The notes beneath the pieces were generated by a model. It ran no database searches. It was not told the origin of the DNA and was given only the letters and a program-made list of their open reading frames with translations. The position numbers and the translations under genes are program-made. This document shows, one piece after another, positions 96 to 32,162 of a stretch of 32,162 bases of DNA; the stretch's first letter is position 1; every line of letters begins with the position of its first letter. Origin of the DNA: Rhodothermales bacterium (GTDB taxonomy: Bacteria; Bacteroidota; Rhodothermia; Rhodothermales; Bin80); the NCBI GenBank assembly GCA_022821875.1, contig JAJECV010000037.1, forward strand, positions 1-32,162, given 5' to 3'.

Positions 96-1373
96 CTAAT
101 GAAACCAAGATGGGTAATTTATTTTTTGGTGAGCCCTAAGATTCTCATTTTTCTGTTCCATCTCACTCCAAGAACTAGTATCTGCTAATCCATCTGTTAA
201 GCCAAAATCGCTTCGTAGCAAAGCATCAATTGACTTTACAATGTAGGATACCACTGGACGAGGGGTGTAGAAGACCCCGCGTTTCACCTTCTTCTCCTTA
301 TCATATTCTGCGAGGAAGTTTTCATAGAAATGAATTACTGGGTCCTCTCTTGGATTTTGGTCTCCAAAATCTCGTACAACCGATTCCATATTGGTATGAT
401 TTAGAAAATCCTCAATCTCAACTATTCCTAATTCGTCAAAATTTATCGCATTTTCCCCTGTACCTATGCTTAGAAAAACAGACATCAATTCGTTCAGGAG
501 CGGGTTCGTGCGCAGATAACGAGTAAAATCATTAGCCGCACTCTGTTTTGGGTTAGTGATACGGGCCGATAGCAACCCATAAGTGATAGTCTGAGCGACC
601 ATGTCTGCAAAACTACTGTGATCAATATCACCAACTAGGGTTTCCTGGAAACTCTTCAGAAGCATGGTTACATAACCGTCTTCTGTTTCTATCTCAAGTG
701 CTTTCTTAATCCGTTCGCGTATCTCTCGGGCGAGTTCAGCTAAGCGAATTGAAAGGTCGCGAGAAGTGTTAACAGTGTGTCTATACTGGACTGTAAAGGC
801 TTTTTTCCATTGTTTACGCCATGCCGCTGCATTATCTGGATTGCTAGGCCAAGTTAAGCATCTCGTTAACTGCTGATTGATGTGCTCCAAATGTAGATGT
901 GTGTCTCTTGAGTCCCAGTCAAGTACCTTGAGCACAGGTGCCCTTTGACTTTCTGGAGCCGGCGTGAAGTGCGCAAAGGTAATTCGCCTTTGTTCATCTT
1001 GGCCATAATTTGAAACAAACAATAAATCTTCAATCTCCCATCTACGCAGTTGTCCTCTGTTGGATAAGGTATGTCTTTTGATTGCAAATCGTCCAAGAAT
1101 ACTCCTCAACGCTAAAACTGGTAGACTTTTAGGTTCAAATTTAACGAAGAAGATCCCCCATGGCTGTTTTGGATGAAATGGTCGAAGACGCTTTATTTCT
1201 TGAATTTTCGCCGCATTCTTCGCATCAATTCCTAATTCATCAAGTCCGTAGTCAAAGGTGCTGTCCTCAAAACTTTCTGTGCTGATTGGCCAGTCCATCT
1301 CATCCCGAAGATATTCGACCAGTGTGTCGAAATCCTGAATTTGAGATAGACGAGCATGTTGATTACGCTTCAT
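96..1373 (-). pseudogene. Truncated adenine-specific DNA methylase of a restriction-modification system (N-terminal part only)
   Basis: The 425-residue product resembles the N-terminal half of large Type ISP/Type IIG-like N6-adenine methylases. Near residues 363-390 it has the GVFYTPRPVVSYIV segment that normally precedes SAM-binding motif I. The expected catalytic domain (an FxGxG-type SAM motif and NPPY) is absent. After about residue 400 the family-like sequence gives way to a short unrelated tail ending at a stop at 96, so the gene was probably cut near positions 96-130. The start is well supported: ATG at 1373 follows a strong AGGTGAGGAG ribosome site (1374-1383) that overlaps the helicase stop codon. 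It is the second gene of an operon with the PLD-SNF2 helicase. The remaining protein could still be a recognition or scaffold part, but methylation activity is not expected. A chimeric assembly could also explain the truncation. Confidence 0.7.
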
Positions 1374-1377
1374 CTCC

Positions 1378-4300
1378 TCACCTATTATTTAATTCCATCC
1401 AGCAACGTAGCCTTGGTTTCACTCCAATCGGGGCATCAACCCGCTTGAGGTAAGTGTTCTTAATACGACGTTCAATCTGTTCTCGTATCTGAATCAATCT
1501 CGTTTGTTCAAGTCTACACTTTCGTGGGGTATCTGGCCTGCTGCGAATATGATTCACAATCTCCTCGGGCTTATCAAGGACTCGTTCACTTTCAAGGTCG
1601 TAGAGATACCAACGAGTGATGCCAGCCTCATCTGTAAATTTGCCCTTCAATTTATCCAGAGCCGGCAGTGTATAGCAGAAAAAAATCTCTGAACCTTGCG
1701 GTGAAATACTCTCTCGTCCGCTAAATACACTTCCAGGAAGCTGCTTTAGTTTCGTCTCAAGTTTTGGATCGGACATAAGCAATTCCTGATACTCTAGCTG
1801 CATTTCCTCAACCGAGGTTTTTGAGCCTTCGTATTCTTCATTGAATTCATTCCAGTTTTTCAATTCGTCGTACTCATCATCGGGATGGAGCAGCTTTTTC
1901 CCCTCAATGCCTAGTGTCTTAGAAATGATCAGGGTTTTCTGTGTGACCTTCTTATATAACGAAAGAAGATCGTCTAATTCATTGGGTGGTAGAAAATTCC
2001 AAAATGCAACCTTGTTACGTGAGTCTGCTAATTCGGGCATGTCGGCCAACATCTTTTTCTCTGTTTCCGGATTCATACGTCGATCCACACGTCCAATTCG
2101 CTGCATCAGACGTACCGGGTTCCAGTGTATATCATAGTTGATTAGCCGGGATGCATCTTGGAGATTCAATCCCTCAGAAAGGACATCCGTAGAAATGAGT
2201 ACTTGGATCTCTTGTAACCCCTGCGATTGCAACTCGGGAACAGACAGACCATTGTAGTAAGGCGAAAATCGTTTAATGACATCTGCACGATTGCGCCCGG
2301 TTGCACTATCTACTTGTTCAACCCCCTCAATACCAGACTTTTGTAACTGCCCCTTTAGATAGCGTGCAGTGTGGGCAAATTCTGTAAAAATAAGCACCTT
2401 CTCATTCCGTAGATCGTCTGAGTTAAGTAAACAAATCAGATGCTGTAACTTATCATCATCCTTTGAATCAAATTTCCGGGCCTCGTTAAGGAATAGTACA
2501 ATCTGATCAAGGTCTTGGAAAATCTCGGACATCATTTCGTCCACCTTGTATTCCATTCGGCTAAGCTTTTCAACTTTATCAAGCATTTCGTGAGGGACGA
2601 TATCCTCATCGTCCTGTTCATCGTCAACCTCAAGTTGCGACTGACGTGAAATCGCATAGGTTAAGGCTTCTTTGTTGCTAATTTTCCATTGTTTGAGTTG
2701 CGACCGTTCAATTTCGGTTTCGCTGTGGACATCCAAAAATGCCAATAGCTTTAAGAGTAGTCGGATACAGGAAAGTTCGAAGGATGCCACAGAACTTTCA
2801 AACCTTTTGAGGAAATTCGTCCGAATCAATCCTACGACCTGCCTTTGACGATTCTCTTCAAAGGCATCAATATTTTTGTCATCTCCTATGTACCAGTGTA
2901 GAGGATAGTACAGGGCCAGCGTAAAGAGTGGATTTTCTTTTGCAAAGGCAATTTCAAGAATATCCAGCATTCCTCCATAAGTCTTGCGAATGGAGTAATC
3001 TGCGACTTGCGGTGGCAGCCTTTCAGGGAATATGGCAGCGGTTTTGTGTTCGCGCATTTGGCTTTCGCGGGCGTACGCTCGACTTCGCTGCACTACAAGT
3101 TGGCGAAAAATCTCTTGACTGCCTAGGATCTCCTGAGCATCGGCTAAGTGATCGGCTACGTCAACGCCATGCTGATGAACACGATCACGTAACTTCCTTT
3201 CCATTTGGTTAAAGTGGCCTCTTAGATGATTTACTCCGATAGTCTGGGCGAAATAGTTTTCATTTTTTCGAGTAAACAATTCCATCATATGCCGAAAATC
3301 ACTCAAGCGGTTATTAATTGGTGTTGCCGTTAACAGAAAGACCATTTTTTGGTGAATGGTATCATCCAGTAGATCAAATAAGCGATAATATCTGGATGGA
3401 CTCTTACCCGTATTATCATCTCCAGGAGTACCAGGATTGCGAAAGTAATGTGCCTCGTCAATGATTACTACATCTGCGAGATCTGCAATACGTTTGAATC
3501 GTTCCAGAAAATCTCCTCTTCGTCCAAGATCTGTGTGATTGAATACGGCAAGGTTACTGAAGTCCTCGCTGCCTCCAATGCCACCAATATGATTGAGATA
3601 TTTTTTCAGACTTGGCTCCCAGACACCTTCCCTTACCGCCTTAGGAGCAAACAAAACAACTCGTTTACGTTCATGTAGGGTCAATCTCTCGATCAGCATG
3701 AGACCTACAAAGGTTTTGCCAAGCCCCACTCCGTCACAAAGAAATGCTCCTCCGTGCTGGCGGGCTATTCTCATAAGCGTCCAGTACGCTTCTTTCTGAT
3801 AGCGATCCAATATCTTGAAGATTACAGATCTCGTCTCATCCCATTCGGTTGCAGTTAACTCGTGACCACGAAAGAACTCCTGCAATGCCTTTGCATAGAT
3901 TTCAAATGGTGCATATTCGTGGGTGTGTCGCTGGATCGTCTGAACGACAGTATCTGTTACATCTACTGCATCCTCCCAATACTCGTCAAACCATTCTTGA
4001 AGCTGTGCAACCTCTCGTGCACTCTGAATCTGGACGTTCAATTCAATATTCTGTGTAAGCCCTGGGCGTGTGAAATTACTAGAGCCCACAAGTGCCTGAG
4101 CACCAACTACTTCCATTCTGGCGTGTGTGATATAGGCTTTTGCGTGAAATTTTTCCCTGTTATATATGCGGCACTCAATTCTACCGGTGCGTAATGCATG
4201 AAGGATACCAGCTACTCCCCGCAGGAAAGGATTCAGATCTTTTTCTTCCTCAATTCTGTTCTCTAACTCATCGAGAGCCCGCTTACGTACTGCTTCAAGG

Positions 4301-4545
4301 ATTGCCTGCCGGGTGCGCTCAGTAGTTTCCGATCCCATGAGGATTCGGATCCTATCAAGTTTCTGCCAACTACCATCTAATGCCAGGAGTGCACCAATTT
4401 CAAAGTATCCTGTTGCAATGTCGAAAGATTTAGCAATAGTAGACCATTCCGAAAGGTAGCGTAGTCCAGTCCATCCTTCTATGCTGTTGTCAACAATAAA
4501 AAGTTCATGACCCTGACGACTGCGAGACGATTTACCCATGGCCAT
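1378..4545 (-). CDS. PLD-nuclease/SNF2-family helicase, restriction or defence component
   Basis: The 1055-residue protein has two parts. The N-terminal ~190 residues form a phospholipase-D-type nuclease domain with one HxK motif (His134, Lys136) followed by GSSNFT (about 154-159). Such domains usually act as dimers. The rest is an SF2/SNF2 helicase: DGVGLGKT Walker A at about 271-278, DEAH at about 363-366, LLTATP at about 414-419, and a C-terminal lobe with STDVLSEGLNLQ and QRIGRVDR. The expected role is ATP-driven movement on DNA coupled to cleavage in a restriction or anti-phage complex. It is the first gene of an operon with the truncated methylase and is divergent from the Res-type gene. 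PLD and SNF2 proteins also occur separately in DISARM (DrmC, DrmD), but drmA and drmB are not visible here, so I do not call DISARM. Two Met codons (4545, 4539) are possible starts. Confidence 0.8.
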   Translation of the reverse strand: MAMGKSSRSRQGHELFIVDNSIEGWTGLRYLSEWSTIAKSFDIATGYFEIGALLALDGSWQKLDRIRILMGSETTERTRQAILEAVRKRALDELENRIEEEKDLNPFLRGVAGILHALRTGRIECRIYNREKFHAKAYITHARMEVVGAQALVGSSNFTRPGLTQNIELNVQIQSAREVAQLQEWFDEYWEDAVDVTDTVVQTIQRHTHEYAPFEIYAKALQEFFRGHELTATEWDETRSVIFKILDRYQKEAYWTLMRIARQHGGAFLCDGVGLGKTFVGLMLIERLTLHERKRVVLFAPKAVREGVWEPSLKKYLNHIGGIGGSEDFSNLAVFNHTDLGRRGDFLERFKRIADLADVVIIDEAHYFRNPGTPGDDNTGKSPSRYYRLFDLLDDTIHQKMVFLLTATPINNRLSDFRHMMELFTRKNENYFAQTIGVNHLRGHFNQMERKLRDRVHQHGVDVADHLADAQEILGSQEIFRQLVVQRSRAYARESQMREHKTAAIFPERLPPQVADYSIRKTYGGMLDILEIAFAKENPLFTLALYYPLHWYIGDDKNIDAFEENRQRQVVGLIRTNFLKRFESSVASFELSCIRLLLKLLAFLDVHSETEIERSQLKQWKISNKEALTYAISRQSQLEVDDEQDDEDIVPHEMLDKVEKLSRMEYKVDEMMSEIFQDLDQIVLFLNEARKFDSKDDDKLQHLICLLNSDDLRNEKVLIFTEFAHTARYLKGQLQKSGIEGVEQVDSATGRNRADVIKRFSPYYNGLSVPELQSQGLQEIQVLISTDVLSEGLNLQDASRLINYDIHWNPVRLMQRIGRVDRRMNPETEKKMLADMPELADSRNKVAFWNFLPPNELDDLLSLYKKVTQKTLIISKTLGIEGKKLLHPDDEYDELKNWNEFNEEYEGSKTSVEEMQLEYQELLMSDPKLETKLKQLPGSVFSGRESISPQGSEIFFCYTLPALDKLKGKFTDEAGITRWYLYDLESERVLDKPEEIVNHIRSRPDTPRKCRLEQTRLIQIREQIERRIKNTYLKRVDAPIGVKPRLRCWMELNNR

Positions 4546-4848
4546 TAAACCTCAGTATACCACACACGAATGCTCTACAAGGTACATGTTGTAGTTCAGG
4601 CAGATATGAAATCACTCGCATAAGATTGCTTATCATATATTTGAGGAGATACGCAGCGGTACTGCGAGACTTATTGGCTAAAACTTGTTTACTTTACTCC
4701 CAATGCGATTATCTGAAGATGTAAAGGTGATCCTGCTTCTGACGGCAGATTGGAGTAAGGATAACCGTCCAAATATAAGCTTTTGACCTCTTATGAATGG
4801 CATCGGAACAGGTTGCACATCAATCGAACACATAGATTGCGGAAGAAC
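4546..4848. promoter_or_regulatory. Divergent intergenic region between helicase and Res-type gene
   Basis: These 303 bases separate two divergent defence genes and must hold both promoters. A TATATTTG at 4636-4643 matches the Bacteroidota -7 pattern TAnnTTTG for the rightward gene, but no TTTG stands at the usual distance upstream, so it is weak. A GGAAG just before ATG 4849 is a plausible ribosome site. I see no gene here. Confidence 0.35.
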
Positions 4849-7404
4849 ATGATTTTGAAGGATTATCAAAAGCGAACCCTGACCACGGTTACTCACTTTC
4901 TTCGGAGTTTAACACAGGCCAAGGAGGATGACCGTCAGGCCAGAATTCGTGATCCTGAAAGGAGCCTCAACTGGGCAGAGATGGCTTGGGAAAAAATCTT
5001 GCCCATGAAGAAGTACAACAATCGCCTCAATGGATTGGGGGAATGTCTTCCTTCCTTTTGTCTTAAAATCCCGACCGGCGGCGGCAAAACGTTGATTGCA
5101 ACTCGAGTGATTGATCTTGTGAACGCACATTTTCGGTATAGTCGGCGTGGCTTAGTGCTTTGGATTGTGCCCACGAGCCAGATCTACAGGCAAACTCTCA
5201 AAGCACTCAAAGACAAAGATCATCCCTATCGTCAGCAACTTGATTTGTCATCAGGGCAACGTACTCGTATTTTCGAGAAAACTTCGTCTTTTAGCCCGCA
5301 GGATGTGGTAGAAAACCTCTGTATCCTCCTGTTGATGCTTCCTTCGGCCAATCGTGGACTTACTCAAAGGGACAAGCTAAGAATATATCGGGACAGTGGG
5401 GCATTTGATCAATTCTTCCCTGACTCTGGTGATCCATCAGCACATGAAAAACTGCTGAAGCATTTCCCGAACCTTGACACCTTTGAAGGATATGCAGGAT
5501 TTGGTGGTCGGTTGATTAAAACTTCTCTTGGAAATACCATACGCCTTTTGAAGCCGTTGATTATTCTCGACGAAGGGCATAAAGCGTACAGCGCCAATGC
5601 AAAAAGAACACTGGAGGGCTTTAATCCCTGTATGGTCGTAGAACTCTCTGCCACTCCAGACAAACTCTCAAATGTTCTGGTTGAGATCCAAGGTGTAGAA
5701 CTTAACGCTGAGGAAATGGTCAAGCTTGACCTTCACATTCGTAATAAAGAAGGTAGGGACTGGCGTGACACGCTATTGGAATCCATCCAACATCGTGAAA
5801 TTCTTGAATCGGAGGCACGGCGTTACGAAGCAGAGTCGGGGATCTATATTCGACCTGTCTGTGTGATACAGGTGGAGAGAACGGGGCGTGGACAGAGAAA
5901 ACCAGAGTATATCCATACGGAGGATGTACGAGAATATTTACTGTGGTGCGATGGAATTCAATTGGAGCATATAGCGGTTAAAACAAGTGAGAAGGATGAG
6001 CTCAAAGAGATGGATGAAATAGGTGGATTGATGTCTCGAAATTGCCCGATCCGCTTCATTATCACCAAGCAGGCATTGCAGGAAGGTTGGGATTGTTCGT
6101 TTGCTTATATCTTAACGATTCTCACGAATCCAATGTCTCGTACAAGCCTAACCCAGCTTGTAGGCCGGATCCTGCGTCAACCCTATGCACACAAGACTGG
6201 CAATCCTTGGCTGGATGAGAGTTATGTCTTCTGTTTTAATCGCCGTGCAAAAGACATTCTGCATGAAGTTAGGAAAGGTTTTGGGCTTGAGGGATTACAG
6301 GATTTGGAAGCGAGAATTGTGGCAGATGAGGATATGGTCAAACCCACGAAAAGGCTAAAAACCCGTCAAGGGAGTCATTATTGTACGGAAATCCGTAATC
6401 GGCTGCTTCCCGCTTTTATGATTCAAGATAGTGTCGGATGGAGACTTGCTCAATACGAGACGGATATTCTTTCACGGTTGCCATGGCAAGAAATTGATAT
6501 CTCAACACTCAGCACCCTGAATTTCAGCGAAAGGACATCAGGGAATGTCGTGTTACGTACGAATCTGGATAAGCTAGTACGGATTGAGAATGTAGTAGAT
6601 TCTGAGGATGGCCATGTCATTGATTACGGAACCGCAACGATTCATATTCTTGATTTGGTCCCCAATCCTTGGCATGGGTATCATTTGGTCGAGCGGACTT
6701 TCGAGGCACTACTTGAGCATCATCCATTTGAATATGTGGTAGCCAATTATGTCTTTGTCCTAGAACAGCTTCGTGATGTCCTAGAGCAAGAATGTGACCG
6801 CTTGTCTCGGATGGTTTTTGATTCCCTTATTGAGTCGGATACGATTCGATTTCTTGTTGTTGCGGAGGAGCTGGACTTCCATCGCCCGCCGGATGAAATT
6901 AGTATTCCGAAGGTGAAGCGAATGGGCCTGAAGGACAGCAATCCGAATCAACTGAGTCCATTTAATGCAATTCCAGAAGATGACTTGAACAAATCGGAGA
7001 ATAAGGTCGCTACCTATTTGGATCAGCAGGCGCGAATGTTTTTCTGGTACAGTAACCAACATCGCAAGGGCTACTTCACGCAGGGATGGAGACCTAGCCG
7101 GATCTATAAAGATTTTACTGCAACATTGAAAGACGAAGAATTGGTGAGCAAGGATGAATCCCATGAAGTGTTTGTGCTGGAAACGAAAGGGCTTTATCTG
7201 GATAGGTCGGAGGATCCTGATCCCGAACGTTCAGTATTTGATATTTGCAGTGAGCATACTCAGAAGGCAGACTGGGGCAGATTCGCTCCATCAATGTGCA
7301 GAGGGGGAGTTCGCTTTGAGATTGTAGATAAAGAAAAATGGGAGGCATGTTTGAATGAAATGCTCTTTTCCGATGCCCCCAATCCTGAAACGAAATACGA
7401 GTGA
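4849..7404 (+). CDS. Type III Res-like DEAD/DEAH helicase with C-terminal PD-(D/E)XK nuclease
   Basis: The 851-residue protein has the layout of the restriction subunit of Type III-like enzymes. Visible parts, numbered from ATG 4849, are Walker A PTGGGKT at about 75-81, DEGH at 241-244, LSATP soon after, and a motif VI region LVGRILRQPYAHKTGNP. The C-terminal nuclease has a likely PD-(D/E)XK core with Asp755 and Glu778-Thr-Lys780 (VLETKG). It may belong to the family NCBI calls BPTD_3080 restriction endonucleases; this is from memory. ATG 4849 is preferred over an upstream start at 4783 because GGAAG lies just before it and the sequence from MILKDYQ is family-like. It is divergent from the PLD-SNF2 helicase operon, which suggests one system. 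No intact methylase is visible in the window to protect host DNA. Confidence 0.85.
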   Translation: MILKDYQKRTLTTVTHFLRSLTQAKEDDRQARIRDPERSLNWAEMAWEKILPMKKYNNRLNGLGECLPSFCLKIPTGGGKTLIATRVIDLVNAHFRYSRRGLVLWIVPTSQIYRQTLKALKDKDHPYRQQLDLSSGQRTRIFEKTSSFSPQDVVENLCILLLMLPSANRGLTQRDKLRIYRDSGAFDQFFPDSGDPSAHEKLLKHFPNLDTFEGYAGFGGRLIKTSLGNTIRLLKPLIILDEGHKAYSANAKRTLEGFNPCMVVELSATPDKLSNVLVEIQGVELNAEEMVKLDLHIRNKEGRDWRDTLLESIQHREILESEARRYEAESGIYIRPVCVIQVERTGRGQRKPEYIHTEDVREYLLWCDGIQLEHIAVKTSEKDELKEMDEIGGLMSRNCPIRFIITKQALQEGWDCSFAYILTILTNPMSRTSLTQLVGRILRQPYAHKTGNPWLDESYVFCFNRRAKDILHEVRKGFGLEGLQDLEARIVADEDMVKPTKRLKTRQGSHYCTEIRNRLLPAFMIQDSVGWRLAQYETDILSRLPWQEIDISTLSTLNFSERTSGNVVLRTNLDKLVRIENVVDSEDGHVIDYGTATIHILDLVPNPWHGYHLVERTFEALLEHHPFEYVVANYVFVLEQLRDVLEQECDRLSRMVFDSLIESDTIRFLVVAEELDFHRPPDEISIPKVKRMGLKDSNPNQLSPFNAIPEDDLNKSENKVATYLDQQARMFFWYSNQHRKGYFTQGWRPSRIYKDFTATLKDEELVSKDESHEVFVLETKGLYLDRSEDPDPERSVFDICSEHTQKADWGRFAPSMCRGGVRFEIVDKEKWEACLNEMLFSDAPNPETKYE

Positions 7405-8116: not shown

Positions 8117-10183
8117 GTGGGTTACATCGTTAAGCTGGATGGATTTTTAGTAGCCCAACGCAGTACAAAATTCCTTCCTGAGGATATAGACATAAATCCA
8201 AAGGCTTTATCGCTGATGACATTTTCTGACGATGCCAGGGCAATCCTGATTTTGACAGGACATCTCAGAGCGAAGAAAAAATCTCGGGAGCTGGGATTAC
8301 TGAATCCAAAACAGTGGAACCGGCTTCGACTATATCTTGAGCAGATCGGAAAGTCTCCTGGAGATCTGTTTAGGGAGGAAGAAATTCTTCGCCAATGGGC
8401 GGATCAGGACAGGTGGTATCGGTTGGAGGATGCCGAGAAATGCGTAAAACGCCTGCAGCATGGGGCCGCTTTGGCCAATGCCGTAACACAGTGGGCGAAA
8501 TGGAATATTTGGGTCATGACCTATCTGGACCATGATTATCCCTGGAGACTCAAAGAACGATTATCGAACAGATCTGATTTTTCTCCAGTACTCTACGGAG
8601 TAGGAGACCGGTCATTGCTTCAAGATGGCGGGCTTGCCGTAGTGGGTTCACGTAAACCCCCTGCGGAGTTAGAGGCGTATTACCTTGACTATACCCAATC
8701 GTTAGGTGAGGCCGCTGCTGCTGAGGCGGTAACGGTTATTTCCGGCGGTGCCCGGGGAGTGGATACCAAAGCCATGACGGGGGCTCTTGAGAAAAACGGG
8801 AATGCCGTAGGCGTACTGACACATCAACTTCTGGAAAAGTCCAGCAGCCGGATATATCGTGATTCTTTGGAAGGAGGGCAGTTAGCGTTGGTGTCTTTGG
8901 TTGACCCGGAAATCAATTTGTTCAAGGTTGATCGTTACGCTTATGGCTCTGCCGCAATGCAGCGGAACAAGTACATTTACTGCTTATCCGATGCCGCTGT
9001 AGTGATTCGATCTGATAAGAAAGGCGGCACCTGGAGTGGAGCAGTAGAGAACTTGCAGGAGTCCTGGGTTCCGCTTTGGATGAAGAGGGATAGCGAGCAT
9101 GACACCGAAGCAGCAAACAAAATTATTGTAGAAAAAGGTGCAGAATGGTTTCCCGAGGATAAGGATGTAAATGACCATCTCCGATTGTCCCTTAGGCAAA
9201 GAGACATTCGCAGGGTGACCATTTTACTCACAGTCAATTTGAGTAGTGATCAATCCAATCGAGCAGATCCCCTGAATTTTAAGGAATGGGGGCAATTTGC
9301 CAGGGATCTGTTGAATAAAAAGAAAACCCCCGCAGATTTTATCTACGAGCCTTTTAGCCAAGTCCTTGAGGAGGGGGATCAAGGAGGTTTCTCAATCAGA
9401 CGAATTGAGGGACTGCTGAACCCGGATCGAATCAACCGGCTTTCTCAGGAAGAAGAAAGTTGGCGGGATGCAGGAATCTCAATATTAACGAGAGGGGACA
9501 GAAACTATCCACAGACACTGAAGATCAAGCTGCGGCATGACAGCCCCCCTCTGATGTTTGTGGTGGGGAATCTGGAACTGCTTGTTTCCGAACAAAAAAA
9601 AGTTGCCATTCTGGGATTGAGGAAAAATGACGGTAAAACGGATCTGAACTATGCCTATTCGTTCGGTGCTGCACTGGCCCAAAAAGGAGGAGTACTAGTT
9701 TCCACGAATCACAGTAAAATTGAGAAAGAGGCAGTAAAGGGTTCCCTTGAGAGTGATGGGAAATGCATCATTATACTGCCCGGAAGATTTCAGAGACTCT
9801 TATCTAGTGGTGAGTACAGTGAGTACCTGGAGAATCAGCAACTTGTACTTTTATCAATATCTGCACCCCATGCTAAAGTTCATCCGGCATCTAAGCAGGA
9901 CTGCGATATTGCGTGTGCTTTATCAAGTGCGGTGGTTGTTGTACGCTCAGGCAAGGAAGGTATCATCGCAAATTGTGTGAGTAAGTGGCGCAAAAGAGAG
10001 AACCTGCCCATCTGGATTAGAGAGACAGGTGAACCAATACCGGGCAATCAATTGATTTTTGAACGGGGAGGCGGATGCTGGCTGCCAAGTGGAGAAGATG
10101 TAGACACCCATATTCAATACACGGACAGGTCCGTTTCAGAATGGTTGCAGCAGCTTCAGGGTCCATTGTATGCAGGGAAGTGA
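8117..10183 (+). CDS. Tandem double DprA/Smf-like protein
   Basis: The 688-residue protein holds two full DprA/Smf-like modules. DprA binds single-stranded DNA and loads RecA during transformation. Relatives with other partners occur in defence islands. Module 1 (about 35-345) keeps the Rossmann-fold signatures: VGSRKP, SGGARGVDTKAM, and a late NLFKVDRYAYGSAAMQRNKY...LSDAAVVI segment that matches the family's FP-RNR-I-GLSD motif. Module 2 (about 365-688) has the same order, including a DRNYPQTLKIKL lead-in, but its glycine-rich signatures are eroded (VAILGLRKND, GGVLVSTNHSKIEKEAV, CDIACALSSAVVVV). The usual length is about 290-380 residues, so this is a duplication with one apparently degenerate copy. 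The frame opens with GTG 8117 right after an in-frame TAA. ATG 8216 is an alternative start; neither has a clear ribosome site. It follows the helicase/nuclease genes, which suggests a defence role rather than transformation. Confidence 0.8.
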   Translation: MGYIVKLDGFLVAQRSTKFLPEDIDINPKALSLMTFSDDARAILILTGHLRAKKKSRELGLLNPKQWNRLRLYLEQIGKSPGDLFREEEILRQWADQDRWYRLEDAEKCVKRLQHGAALANAVTQWAKWNIWVMTYLDHDYPWRLKERLSNRSDFSPVLYGVGDRSLLQDGGLAVVGSRKPPAELEAYYLDYTQSLGEAAAAEAVTVISGGARGVDTKAMTGALEKNGNAVGVLTHQLLEKSSSRIYRDSLEGGQLALVSLVDPEINLFKVDRYAYGSAAMQRNKYIYCLSDAAVVIRSDKKGGTWSGAVENLQESWVPLWMKRDSEHDTEAANKIIVEKGAEWFPEDKDVNDHLRLSLRQRDIRRVTILLTVNLSSDQSNRADPLNFKEWGQFARDLLNKKKTPADFIYEPFSQVLEEGDQGGFSIRRIEGLLNPDRINRLSQEEESWRDAGISILTRGDRNYPQTLKIKLRHDSPPLMFVVGNLELLVSEQKKVAILGLRKNDGKTDLNYAYSFGAALAQKGGVLVSTNHSKIEKEAVKGSLESDGKCIIILPGRFQRLLSSGEYSEYLENQQLVLLSISAPHAKVHPASKQDCDIACALSSAVVVVRSGKEGIIANCVSKWRKRENLPIWIRETGEPIPGNQLIFERGGGCWLPSGEDVDTHIQYTDRSVSEWLQQLQGPLYAGK

Positions 10184-19938: not shown

Positions 19939-19945
19939 TTGTGCG

Positions 19946-20704
19946 CAGATTGTTCTATAACTCTCCGTCAGATTGTCAGTTACTGCTTCGGCAGATTGTT
20001 CTACAACTCTCCGTCAGATTGTCAGCTACTGCTTCGGCAGATTGTTTCATAACTCTCCGTCAGATTGTCAGTTACTGCCTCGGCAGATTGTTCTACAACT
20101 CTCCGTCAGATTGTCAGCTACTGCTTCGGCAGATTGTTCTATAACTCTCCGTCAGATTGTTCTACAACTCTCCGTCAGATTGTCAGCTACTGCTTCGGCA
20201 GATTATTCTATAACTCTCCGGCAGATTGTCAACTACTGCTCCGGCAGATTGTCAACCATTGCCTCGGCAGATTGTTCTATAACTCTCCGTCAGATTGTCA
20301 GCTACTGCTTTGGCAGATTGTCAACCACTACTTCGGCAGATTGTTCTATAACTCTCCGTCAGATTGTTCTACAACTCTCCGTTAGATTGTCAGCTACTGC
20401 TTCGGCAGATTGTCAACCACTGCTTCGGCAGATTGTTCTATAACTCTCCGTCAGATTGTCAACCACTGCTCCGTCAGATTGTTCTACAACTCTCCGTCAG
20501 ATTGTCAACCACTGCTTCGGCAGATTGTTCTATAACTCTCCGTCAGATTGTCAGCTACTGCTTCGTCAGATTGTCAACCACTGCTCCGGCAGATTGTTCT
20601 ACAACTCTCCGTCAGATTGTCAGCTACTGCTTCGGCAGGTTGTTCTATAACTCTCCGTCAGATTGTCAGCCACTGCTTCGGCAGATTGTCAACCAGCACT
20701 TCGA
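19946..20704. repeat. Tandem array of 33 units of 23 bp
   Basis: The array has exactly 33 units with no insertion or deletion (33 x 23 = 759 bases). Every unit begins with the 8-base core CAGATTGT, with single changes in three units (12, 20, 31). The next 15 bases come in two types. Type T reads TCTAYAACTCTCCGT (15 units: 1, 3, 5, 7, 9, 10, 12, 15, 18, 19, 22, 24, 26, 29, 31). Type C reads CAGCTACTGCTTCGG or CAACCACTGCTYCGG (18 units). The first nine units strictly alternate T and C, and later the order is mixed. There are no unique spacers, so it is not a CRISPR array. Forward frames are partly open because 23 is not a multiple of 3, but there is no ATG. Functions such as protein-binding sites, structured RNA or a neutral satellite are all possible. 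Confidence 0.95.
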
Positions 20705-29252: not shown

Positions 29253-30242
29253 ATGGGAAGACGAAAGGACAGGGATCTGGAACGAACGCTTGAAGGACTT
29301 CGCACTGAGATCAATTCGGATCTCACAGATTTGGTCAGGGAGCATCAGCCCGGAGAACTCTATGACTCCGTACGGTATGTGATCGCAGGCGGAGGCAAGC
29401 GTATTCGCCCTGCCTTATTACTACTGTCTGCACGGGTGTTTGGAGTTGGGCTCCGGCATGCGATGCCGCTTGCACTAGCGGTGGAATTGATCCATAATTT
29501 TTCTCTCGTCCATGATGACATTATGGATCATGCCGACAGCCGCAGAGGACGAAAAACAGTTCACATAGTGTGGAATACGGACACTGCCATCCTGTGTGGG
29601 GATGTATTGGTTGCTTTAGCATCGGAGTGTATCGGGCAGGTAATTTCCGGTGATTCGTCGCGGTTGACCCAGGTGTTTGGGAGGATGACTAGAGAATTAT
29701 GCGAAGGGCAGGCATTGGATATGGTCATCGGAAGTCGTCAGGATCTTGCCACAGATGACTATCTGCGTATGGTTGACGGCAAAACTGGTGGGTTACTCGC
29801 CGCGTCGCTGGAGATGGGGGGGATTGTCGGTGATGCAGATGCCGCTTCCTGCCGGGCATTATGGGAGGCGGGCAAGTTTATCGGGCGGGCCTTTCAGATT
29901 AAGGACGATCTCCTGGATCTGACTGCGGAGGATCAGCGCTGGGGAAAGGTGCAGGGAGGCGATCTGATGGAAGGGAAAGGGACCTACCTGTTGACAGAGG
30001 CACGTCAGCGGGCAACTGGTGAGGATGCAGCATTTTTTGCCGAGATCTACCCAGGATCCGGGCTGTGCAAGGAGCAGATCCCGGAAGCGCGGGCACGGAT
30101 GGACGCACTAGGGGTACTGGATGCAGCACATGAGCGCGTCCAGAATTACACGCAGCGTGCACTGGAGCAGATCCACTCACTCTCAGGGAATACTGCGGAA
30201 CTCCATGAACTTATTCGACAGATCGGTTCCCGAATCTATTAG
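29253..30242 (+). CDS. Polyprenyl (trans-isoprenyl) diphosphate synthase
   Basis: The 329-residue product condenses isopentenyl diphosphate with an allylic diphosphate. The first Asp-rich motif is DDIMD (88-92) followed by DSRRGRKTVH. The second is DDLLD (218-222) in FQIKDDLLDLTAEDQRWGK, and the GGGKRIRP arm that binds IPP lies at about 46-53. Length and motifs fit geranylgeranyl/farnesyl-type or longer-chain synthases; the chain length cannot be read safely. It starts 23 bases after adk and probably shares its transcript. The product could feed quinones, carotenoids or undecaprenyl-type carriers. Confidence 0.9.
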   Translation: MGRRKDRDLERTLEGLRTEINSDLTDLVREHQPGELYDSVRYVIAGGGKRIRPALLLLSARVFGVGLRHAMPLALAVELIHNFSLVHDDIMDHADSRRGRKTVHIVWNTDTAILCGDVLVALASECIGQVISGDSSRLTQVFGRMTRELCEGQALDMVIGSRQDLATDDYLRMVDGKTGGLLAASLEMGGIVGDADAASCRALWEAGKFIGRAFQIKDDLLDLTAEDQRWGKVQGGDLMEGKGTYLLTEARQRATGEDAAFFAEIYPGSGLCKEQIPEARARMDALGVLDAAHERVQNYTQRALEQIHSLSGNTAELHELIRQIGSRIY

Positions 30243-30315: not shown

Positions 30316-30347
30316 TTTGCATAAAAACAACTTGGATCGTAAATTTG
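30316..30347 (+). promoter_or_regulatory. Bacteroidota-type promoter for the Ig-repeat surface protein
   Basis: TTTG at 30316-30319, a 20-base spacer and TAAATTTG at 30340-30347 match the Bacteroidota consensus (-33 TTTG, -7 TAnnTTTG, spacer about 19-21). Transcription would begin near 30354, leaving a leader of about 70 bases before ATG 30422. This is a sequence match only. A TATAAT at 30418-30423 overlaps that ATG and is probably chance. Confidence 0.5.
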
Positions 30348-30421: not shown

Positions 30422-32162
30422 ATGAGCAGTACATTCAATTTTATCCGTACATTGGGAAGAGTAAGTTTTTCAGCGGCAAAGCATCGTTTTAATCTACCTT
30501 TATTAGGGATTCCGTTTACCCCCCCCCCCCCCCATTTTTTGCTGGAAATGCCGATGGCCTTCTATCGCAAACAGGTGGATTCTATGTCTGATCGTAACGG
30601 CTTTTCTACTGGGGAGTGTTGAGGCATCTCCTGCGTCAGCTCAGACACCCAAGTTGATACTAACCCCGTCTCCTGTCCAAGTGGACAGGAGAGAGCCGCC
30701 GGTACTATACCGTGATGAAGTTGGTCATACGCTCCTTGGTCAACATGATCAGGAAGCCCCGCGGGATGATGGTATTTCTGATCCGCAAAGGGATCCAGCG
30801 GGCCGCCTAGCGTCAGGACACTCTCTCAAACCAATGCCCAATTATCTGGGAAGGGCAGCCGGGGGCAATGCAGCACCAACGGTGACGATCACTGGAGTGC
30901 CACCGAAGATCAATACCAGTACCTTTTCTATTAAGGTTACATTCACATTTTCGGAGAATGTAACCGGCTTTAGGGCAGATGATTTAACCATTTCTGGAGG
31001 TGTTGTTGGCGTTTTGGGCATTACTACGATTAATCAAAGTACCTACCAAGTGGATATATTTCCGCTAAACTCCGATCTGACGCTCACCGTGAAGGCGAAC
31101 TCGGCCATAGGCAGTGACGGCATCACCACCGGCCCGGCATCGGACGTTTCGAAAACCGCGATTTGGGATGTTACTGCACCGACAGTTATGATTACGGGGG
31201 TTCCAACCAAGATCAGTTCCACTGCCGATTTTACTGCAACCTTTACCTTCTCGGAAGCAGTGACAGATTTTGTAACAGGGGATGTGACGGTGACCGGCGG
31301 GACGAAAAGCGGTTTCACGGGAAATGGAGCCACCTATACACTGGATGTTACACCGGCGGGGGACTCCGATGTGACGGTCACGGTGGCGAAGGATGCGGCC
31401 ACGGATGGGATCAATACCGGCCCGTCAACGGCCGTTTCGGCCACCTCGACATGGGATGCGGCTCCTACCGTGAACATCACCGGTGTCCCGGCCCGTATCA
31501 ATTCCACGACCGCCCTCCCGGTCACCTTTACATTTTCGGAATCCGTGACGGATTTTGTGACGGGGGATGTGACGGCGACCGGCGGGACGAAAAGCAGTTT
31601 CTCTGGAAGTGGAAGCAGTTACAGCCTGGATGTCACGCCGGATGGTGGATCCGATGTGACGGTCACGGTGGCGGCGAACGCGGCCACGGACGGTTTCAGT
31701 ACCGGCCCGGCATCGGCGGTCTCGGCTACCGCAACCTGGGATGCGGCAGTACCAACCGTCGCCATCACCGGTGTCCCGGCCCGTATCAATTCCACGACCG
31801 CCTTCCCGGTCACCTTTACATTTTCGGAATCCGTGACGGGCTTTGTGACGGGGGATGTGACGGTGACCGGCGGGACGAAAAACAATTTCTCTGGAAATGG
31901 AGCCACCTACAGCCTGGAGGTCACGCCGGACGGTGGATCCGATGTGACGGTCACGTTGGCGGCGAACGCGGCCACGGACGGCCTCAATACCGGCCCGGCA
32001 TCGGCGGTCTCGGCCACCGCAACCTGGGATGCCGCCGCACCAACCGTTGACATCACGGGCGTTCCGGCCCGCATCAATTCCACGACCGCCTTCCCGGTCA
32101 CCTTTACGTTTTCGGAATCCGTGACGGGCTTTGTGACGGGGGATGTGACGGTGACCGGCGGC
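30422..32162 (+). CDS. Large secreted protein with bacterial Ig-like repeats, frame broken at a poly-C tract (partial)
   Basis: ATG 30422 opens a frame that, as given, ends after 66 residues at TGA 30620-30622. The neighbouring frame is open from 30507 to the window end. It encodes a signal-peptide core (ILCLIVTAFLLGS...ASAQ, about 30579-30644), a linker, and Ig-like domains of 95-101 residues starting near 30873, 31176, 31461, 31749 and 32037 (the last cut by the window edge). Typical motifs are PTVxITGVP, FTFSExVTxFVTGDVTVTGG and LDVTPDGGSDVTVTVA, close to the Big_12-type Ig family. The second frame has no ATG, GTG or TTG between its upstream stop (30504) and the signal peptide, so it must be entered from another frame. 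Fourteen or 17 C in the tract at 30519-30533 would join the two. The role is probably adhesion at the cell surface. Confidence 0.75.
30519..30533 (+). repeat. Poly-C tract of 15, probable phase-variation switch
   Basis: A run of 15 C lies within the 5' end of the Ig-repeat protein gene. With 15 C, reading from ATG 30422 ends after 66 residues. With 14 or 17 C it enters the signal peptide and repeats. Such tracts change length by slipped-strand mispairing and switch surface proteins on and off in many bacteria. It is also a typical place for sequencing length errors. Confidence 0.7.
30873..32162 (+). repeat. Tandem Ig-like domain repeats (about 288 bp each)
   Basis: Units begin near 30873 (303 bp), 31176 (285 bp), 31461 (288 bp), 31749 (288 bp) and 32037 (cut by the edge). 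The units starting at 31461, 31749 and 32037 are nearly identical at DNA level, while the first is clearly diverged. This points to recent copying from the 3' side and allows change of copy number by recombination. Confidence 0.85.

Follow-up and report, generated by a model that had tools for sequence, protein, structure and literature searches.

The locus at the end of the window, the 32,162-nucleotide stretch of a Rhodothermales contig (JAJECV010000037.1) analysed here, raises the question of how a large Ig-repeat protein can be produced when its signal peptide lies in a different reading frame from the start codon upstream of it. The two frames meet at a run of exactly 15 C with A on either side (Table 1). 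Translation from ATG30422 passes through this run and stops at TGA30620-30622, giving a product of 66 aa (MSSTFNFIRTLGRVSFSAAKHRFNLPLLGIPFTPPPPHFLLEMPMAFYRKQVDSMSDRNGFSTGEC*), and the signal-peptide/Ig frame runs without a stop from 30507 to 32162, the end of both the window and the contig, which terminates inside the Ig repeats. A start-codon scan of the export frame found its first ATG, GTG or TTG at TTG30654, already behind the signal peptide. ATG30422 and the export frame are joined if the number of C residues (n) satisfies n mod 3 = 2, i.e., with 14 or 17 C, and one-base changes of the tract join or break the connection between this ATG and the long downstream frame. The original prediction had placed the frame offset across the 15-C run, had described the repeat frame as having no normal start before the signal peptide, and had assigned 14 or 17 C to the joined state and 15 C to a 66-residue stub, all of which was borne out by retranslation, the start-codon scan and the n mod 3 = 2 rule. 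TTG30317 and other upstream starts, the frame of which is open, are unlikely because they are located at or upstream of the putative -33/-7 promoter. The C15 run in the 5' coding region is not due to chance; under a first-order Markov model built from the window, the expected number of C/G runs of at least 15 is 0.00011 for the window and 0.012 for the 3.68-Mb genome. The count of 15 is a metagenome-assembly consensus and could be off by one.

Table 1. Coordinates of the features at the C-tract locus and of the upstream neighbour (window positions).
Feature	Position	Strand	Remarks
Polyprenyl synthetase (PF00348), upstream neighbour	29253..30242	+	profile match
Putative Bacteroidota-type promoter	30316..30347	+	-33 TTTG (30316-30319), 20-nt spacer, -7 TAAATTTG (30340-30347)
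ATG start and 66-residue OFF-state stub ORF (at 15 C)	30422..30622	+	translation; start common to paralogue C115
Leader, ATG to tract	30422..30518	+	32 codons ahead of the proline stretch; read whether ON or OFF
C15 contingency tract	30519..30533	+	n mod 3 = 2 (14, 17) predicted ON; 15, 16 OFF
A-T6 flank	30534..30540	+	with the tract, clade-wide composite C(9+)AT(5-8) = A(5-8)T-G(9+)
Signal peptide, Ig-repeat frame	30534..30641	+	conserved IFCWKCRW n-region, core WILCLIVTAFLLGSVEA, predicted cleavage between PASA and QT
Mature N-terminal segment ahead of the Ig repeats	30642..30869	+	C115 57% identical over query 30534-30875
Five Big_12 (PF19078) Ig-like repeats	30870..32162	+	last one cut by the contig end

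Based on the anatomy of the locus, the frame offset, an ON paralogue with an OFF orthologue, and tract lengths that differ between sister species, the window gene is very probably a translational ON/OFF contingency locus operated by slippage in the C tract. Transcription would begin upstream of ATG30422 and translation at ATG30422, and the C15 tract would be situated within an N-terminal leader, before the signal peptide of a probable T9SS-exported protein. Strand slippage during replication could then alter the tract by single bases. At a joining length (14 or 17), the leader would be fused to the signal-peptide frame and the protein would be made and exported; at 15 or 16 C, only the short stub would result. 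In this scheme, we infer slippage within the population, use of the promoter, export and the adhesive role.

The promoter candidate was found by a scan with the Bacteroidota promoter consensus (PMC7366714). TTTG-N20-TAAATTTG lies 75 nt before ATG30422 and no other site in the window matches TTTG-N19-21-TAnnTTTG exactly (0.27 such sites are expected on the two strands together), and TTG-N23-TATCTTTG occupies the homologous position in paralogue C115. The view that this ATG is promoter-linked is plausible as regards the single match at this distance, and the linkage itself is a prediction. The upstream polyprenyl synthetase served to place the organism: its identity is 95% with the enzyme of "Rhodothermales bacterium jk18x9bins.87" and 62-71% with those of the MAGs CAR3, CAR4, RHO1, SB0661 and bin80. 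We take the names of these relative MAGs to be those of sponge metagenomes, and this Rhodothermales clade is probably sponge-symbiotic, the sponge origin of the MAGs being read from their record names.

The export frame of the window gene contains the signal peptide IFCWKCRWPSIANRWILCLIVTAFLLGSVEASPASA, followed by QT, as read by eye from the translation. The PF19078 profile matches five stretches with 176 bits against a cut-off of 27. The C-terminal half of the protein, including its C-terminus, lies beyond the contig end; the T9SS type A tail (TIGR04183) was found in paralogue C108, where it scores 24.1 bits (cut-off 23). The gene product is probably a T9SS-exported Ig-repeat surface protein, with export predicted, and the Big_12, fn3 and T9SS domains suggest a role as an adhesin.

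Homologues had been proposed as a check on the switch, and the N-terminus, the tract and an equivalent start are common to three relatives, namely, C108 and C115, which are paralogues, and G004:C51 from a sister-species genome (G004). C108, from the same genome, possesses 8 C and is ON, with one continuous 1374-aa ORF from the equivalent ATG and the layout MRLDFIGKLEDKILSVEGPVFSLSFFDDLPC-TPP-IFCRRYRW-signal peptide, followed by Big_12, fn3 and the T9SS type A tail just over cut-off. In its orthologue G004:C51 the tract has 9 C, and the equivalent ATG is out of frame (OFF). C115 also has 9 C and is OFF; it shares the ATAATGAGCA start with the window gene and is 57% identical to it over the N-terminal query 30534-30875. 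The ATG lies at -94/-91 relative to the tract in C108 and its orthologue, versus -97 in the window gene, their leaders being almost as long. The length of the A/T run is variable too, with T6 in the window gene and T5 in C115. The residues just 3' of the tract, FC[WR][KR]xRW, are kept in the export frame in all four genes, and the leader in ON-state family members comprises about 17-31 residues plus the proline stretch. The conserved post-tract residues and the ON paralogue indicate that translation passes through the tract, that a long leader is normal and that no second indel is required. The original prediction had regarded a leader of about 50 residues as unusual and had offered a second indel near 30580, restoring the frame, as an alternative; the leaders of ON-state members remove the first concern, and the second indel is barely conceivable, since C108, C115 and G004:C51 align gap-free through 30541-30600 with a common export frame, even if the stub frame has ATG codons there. 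It is very unlikely that translation starts downstream of the tract at an unusual codon, with the tract in a 5' UTR acting on transcription or RNA stability. A leader of this length, long by the standard of signal peptides, would fit such an arrangement, but the export frame offers no ATG, GTG or TTG before the signal peptide, the IFCWKxRW block beside the tract is conserved in frame, and ON homologues are read from the ATG through the tract. The present OFF frame could also be that of a decayed pseudogene with a frozen frameshift; this carries very little probability, because the 1.6-kb downstream frame is open over its entire length and its repeats are conserved, one paralogue is ON, and dozens of genes show this architecture. 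In the sister genome, assembly of the orthologue of the window gene itself stops at the base matching 30374, probably because the tract and the repeats break assemblies.

Many tracts of this kind occur elsewhere in the genome and the clade. The window genome (G000; 3.68 Mb in 147 contigs), from which the stretches around tracts were taken, has eight runs of at least 11 (2.2 expected) and six of at least 13 (0.17 expected). Among seven orthologous tract pairs of G000 and G004, identified by their flanks, the lengths differ in six (16/11, 11/9, 12/9, 14/10, 8/9 and 9/10) and agree in one (9/9); the 8/9 pair is that of C108, the closest full-length homologue of the window gene. These differences, with the ON state of C108 and the OFF state of its orthologue, support the ON/OFF phase variation that had been predicted for this gene. 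They also bear on the explanation that the count of 15 is a homopolymer sequencing or assembly error, the true length being fixed (e.g., at 14 C) and the gene intact. A short-read consensus over 15 C is unreliable and the contig ends in repeats, but a length error would not create the run or the excess of runs of at least 13, and the sister genomes differ at 8 versus 9 and 9 versus 10, lengths that are fairly safe in short reads; such an error is therefore quite unlikely. Loss of mismatch repair as the source of the long runs was ruled out because MutS is present in the genome.

Counted from ATG starts, the clade's 27 poly-C export genes include about 10 in the ON state and about 15 that are OFF. 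A second surface family, with fn3 domains, keeps the leader MQFNHSxxxHxPFNxVI before its tract, as expected if the leader is translated, and a further tract is found in a lipoprotein (MNKI-P-HFLSKTSVLVLLFTVTGC). In another family, poly-G follows the ATG (MKHITKWGGG-signal peptide); its loci are C2, C18, C88, C136 and C139 in G000 and C87 in G004 (L039, L040, L034, L043, L044 and L223), and the neighbouring A-run also differs among them (A4 or A5), so that two homopolymers can shift the frame. Tracts interrupt DNA methylase genes as well (N6_N4_Mtase and Type ISP, the latter with Type_ISP_C), and in relatives they are also found in N6_Mtase/HSDR_N, Eco57I/MmeI and autotransporter/Calx-beta proteins. 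Methyltransferase and ISP genes are classical phase-variable classes. In a genome of the same genus, G006, three very long C-runs of about 25-39 bases are located near each other (G006:C3:10281-10390), the other tracts being far shorter. G006 and G012 both have very high poly-C counts, mostly without the A-T flank.

Nearly every long tract is followed by a second homopolymer, in the form C(n)-A-T(5-8) or C(n)-GA-T5-6. C9ATTTTT gave about 70 matches (forward plus reverse) in 59 relative genomes, versus one for the backward control, and only one match was obtained outside the order among 395 genomes over the phylum. ATTTT or GATTTT comes next in 0.3% of C-runs of 3-5 and never in the sampled runs of 6-7; in the window genome, it comes next in 10 of 13 runs of at least 10 (background 0.003; p about 1e-23), or in 7 of 10 when counted per flank cluster (p about 2e-16). 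Flank clustering leaves 48 clusters, 39 of them with the A-T motif, although most of these loci were retrieved by the motif itself, so that the unbiased figures are those of the window genome. Descent of all tracts from one copied cassette was rejected because longer flanks are common only within paralogue groups. The rule holds in unrelated genes and for coding on either the C or the G strand, and this occurrence in both orientations makes a DNA-level property more likely than a codon preference. Programmed slippage of RNA polymerase or the ribosome on the C-run plus T6, by which some full-length protein would be made at any length and the tract would tune the level, has to be considered here. 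A AAA AAT, the flank in the other orientation, is a slippery heptamer, and the near-constant joining of the tract to A-T5-8 speaks for such slippage; however, the same DNA motif in both coding orientations argues for a DNA-level cause, and the tract length changes in frame-altering steps. Programmed slippage is thus rather unlikely, and the translational switch remains the preferred reading. The flank may arise from a mutational bias toward the growth of G-runs next to A-tracts, from a dedicated factor or from selection for a double slippery unit. Tentatively, the A5-8T flank may reflect a clade-specific, sequence-directed process that makes, lengthens or keeps G-runs only beside an A-tract, which, if true, would provide a built-in means to seed contingency loci in new genes, in contrast to ordinary slippage on any G-run.

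Elsewhere in the window, about 16 tandem copies of a 46-bp unit (with 69- and 115-bp registers as well) occupy 19945-20690, between ATPase-like and sodium-dependent transporter-like genes, with more than one frame open on the + strand. At the other end, 96-1373 (-) codes for the N-terminal portion of a Type ISP-like restriction-modification protein and stops just before the methylase motif; a full-length homologue in the relative G002 (L238) carries an A6T-G9 tract. It is followed by a PLD-helicase (NgoFVII-like; 1378-4545, -), a Type III Res-like helicase (4783-7404, +) and a double DprA/SLOG protein (8117-10183, +), in the order listed, and the cluster beside the ISP fragment looks like a restriction/defence island. 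As local GC skew in the window appears to track the direction of the genes, it was dropped as a guide to the replication strand.

Homopolymer phase variation is known mostly from pathogens. Here, a lineage probably living in symbiosis with sponges seems to use it on its Ig/fn3 surface proteins, lipoproteins and DNA methylases; an uncultured symbiont would in this way maintain standing diversity toward its host and phages. The composite A(5-8)T-G(9+) unit was not encountered in a search of the open-access literature, which omits some journals, nor was phase variation in sponge-associated Rhodothermales; the flank rule appears to be undescribed so far. Phase-variable Mod/R-M genes constitute phasevarions, and the clade genomes resemble them in having identical tract units in N6_N4_Mtase, Type_ISP_C and N6_Mtase genes; unlike in phasevarions, however, the methylase loci are companions of the window gene and not the window gene itself. 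In Bacteroides, phase variation reportedly proceeds by recombinase-driven invertible promoters, which is similar in that surface structures vary in a related phylum-level group and different in that inversion takes the place of homopolymer slippage. Big_12 is the element shared here with T9SS type A sorted Ig/fn3 surface proteins, and C108 adds fn3 and TIGR04183; the window gene is set apart from them by its phase-variable leader, in which a proline stretch precedes the signal peptide.

Poly-G/poly-C loci of Campylobacter jejuni, e.g., capA, likewise possess an in-frame G/C run toggled ON and OFF by single bases, and surface proteins and restriction enzymes are among the switched genes (PMC4965091). 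In contrast to those loci, nearly all tracts here have the A5-8T flank, and the tract precedes the signal peptide. Repeat number, and not flanking sequence, was reported as the main determinant of slippage in C. jejuni (PMC4965091); contrary to that report, the A-tract flank in dozens of unrelated genes provides a testable clue that flanks can matter for tract origin. The homopolymeric tracts of Bordetella pertussis (PMC1891110) follow the same contingency mechanism in another phylum and other gene families. The mechanism is of a known kind, and what is new is the host lineage, the recurrent leader-proline-signal peptide design and the A(5-8)T-G(9+) unit.
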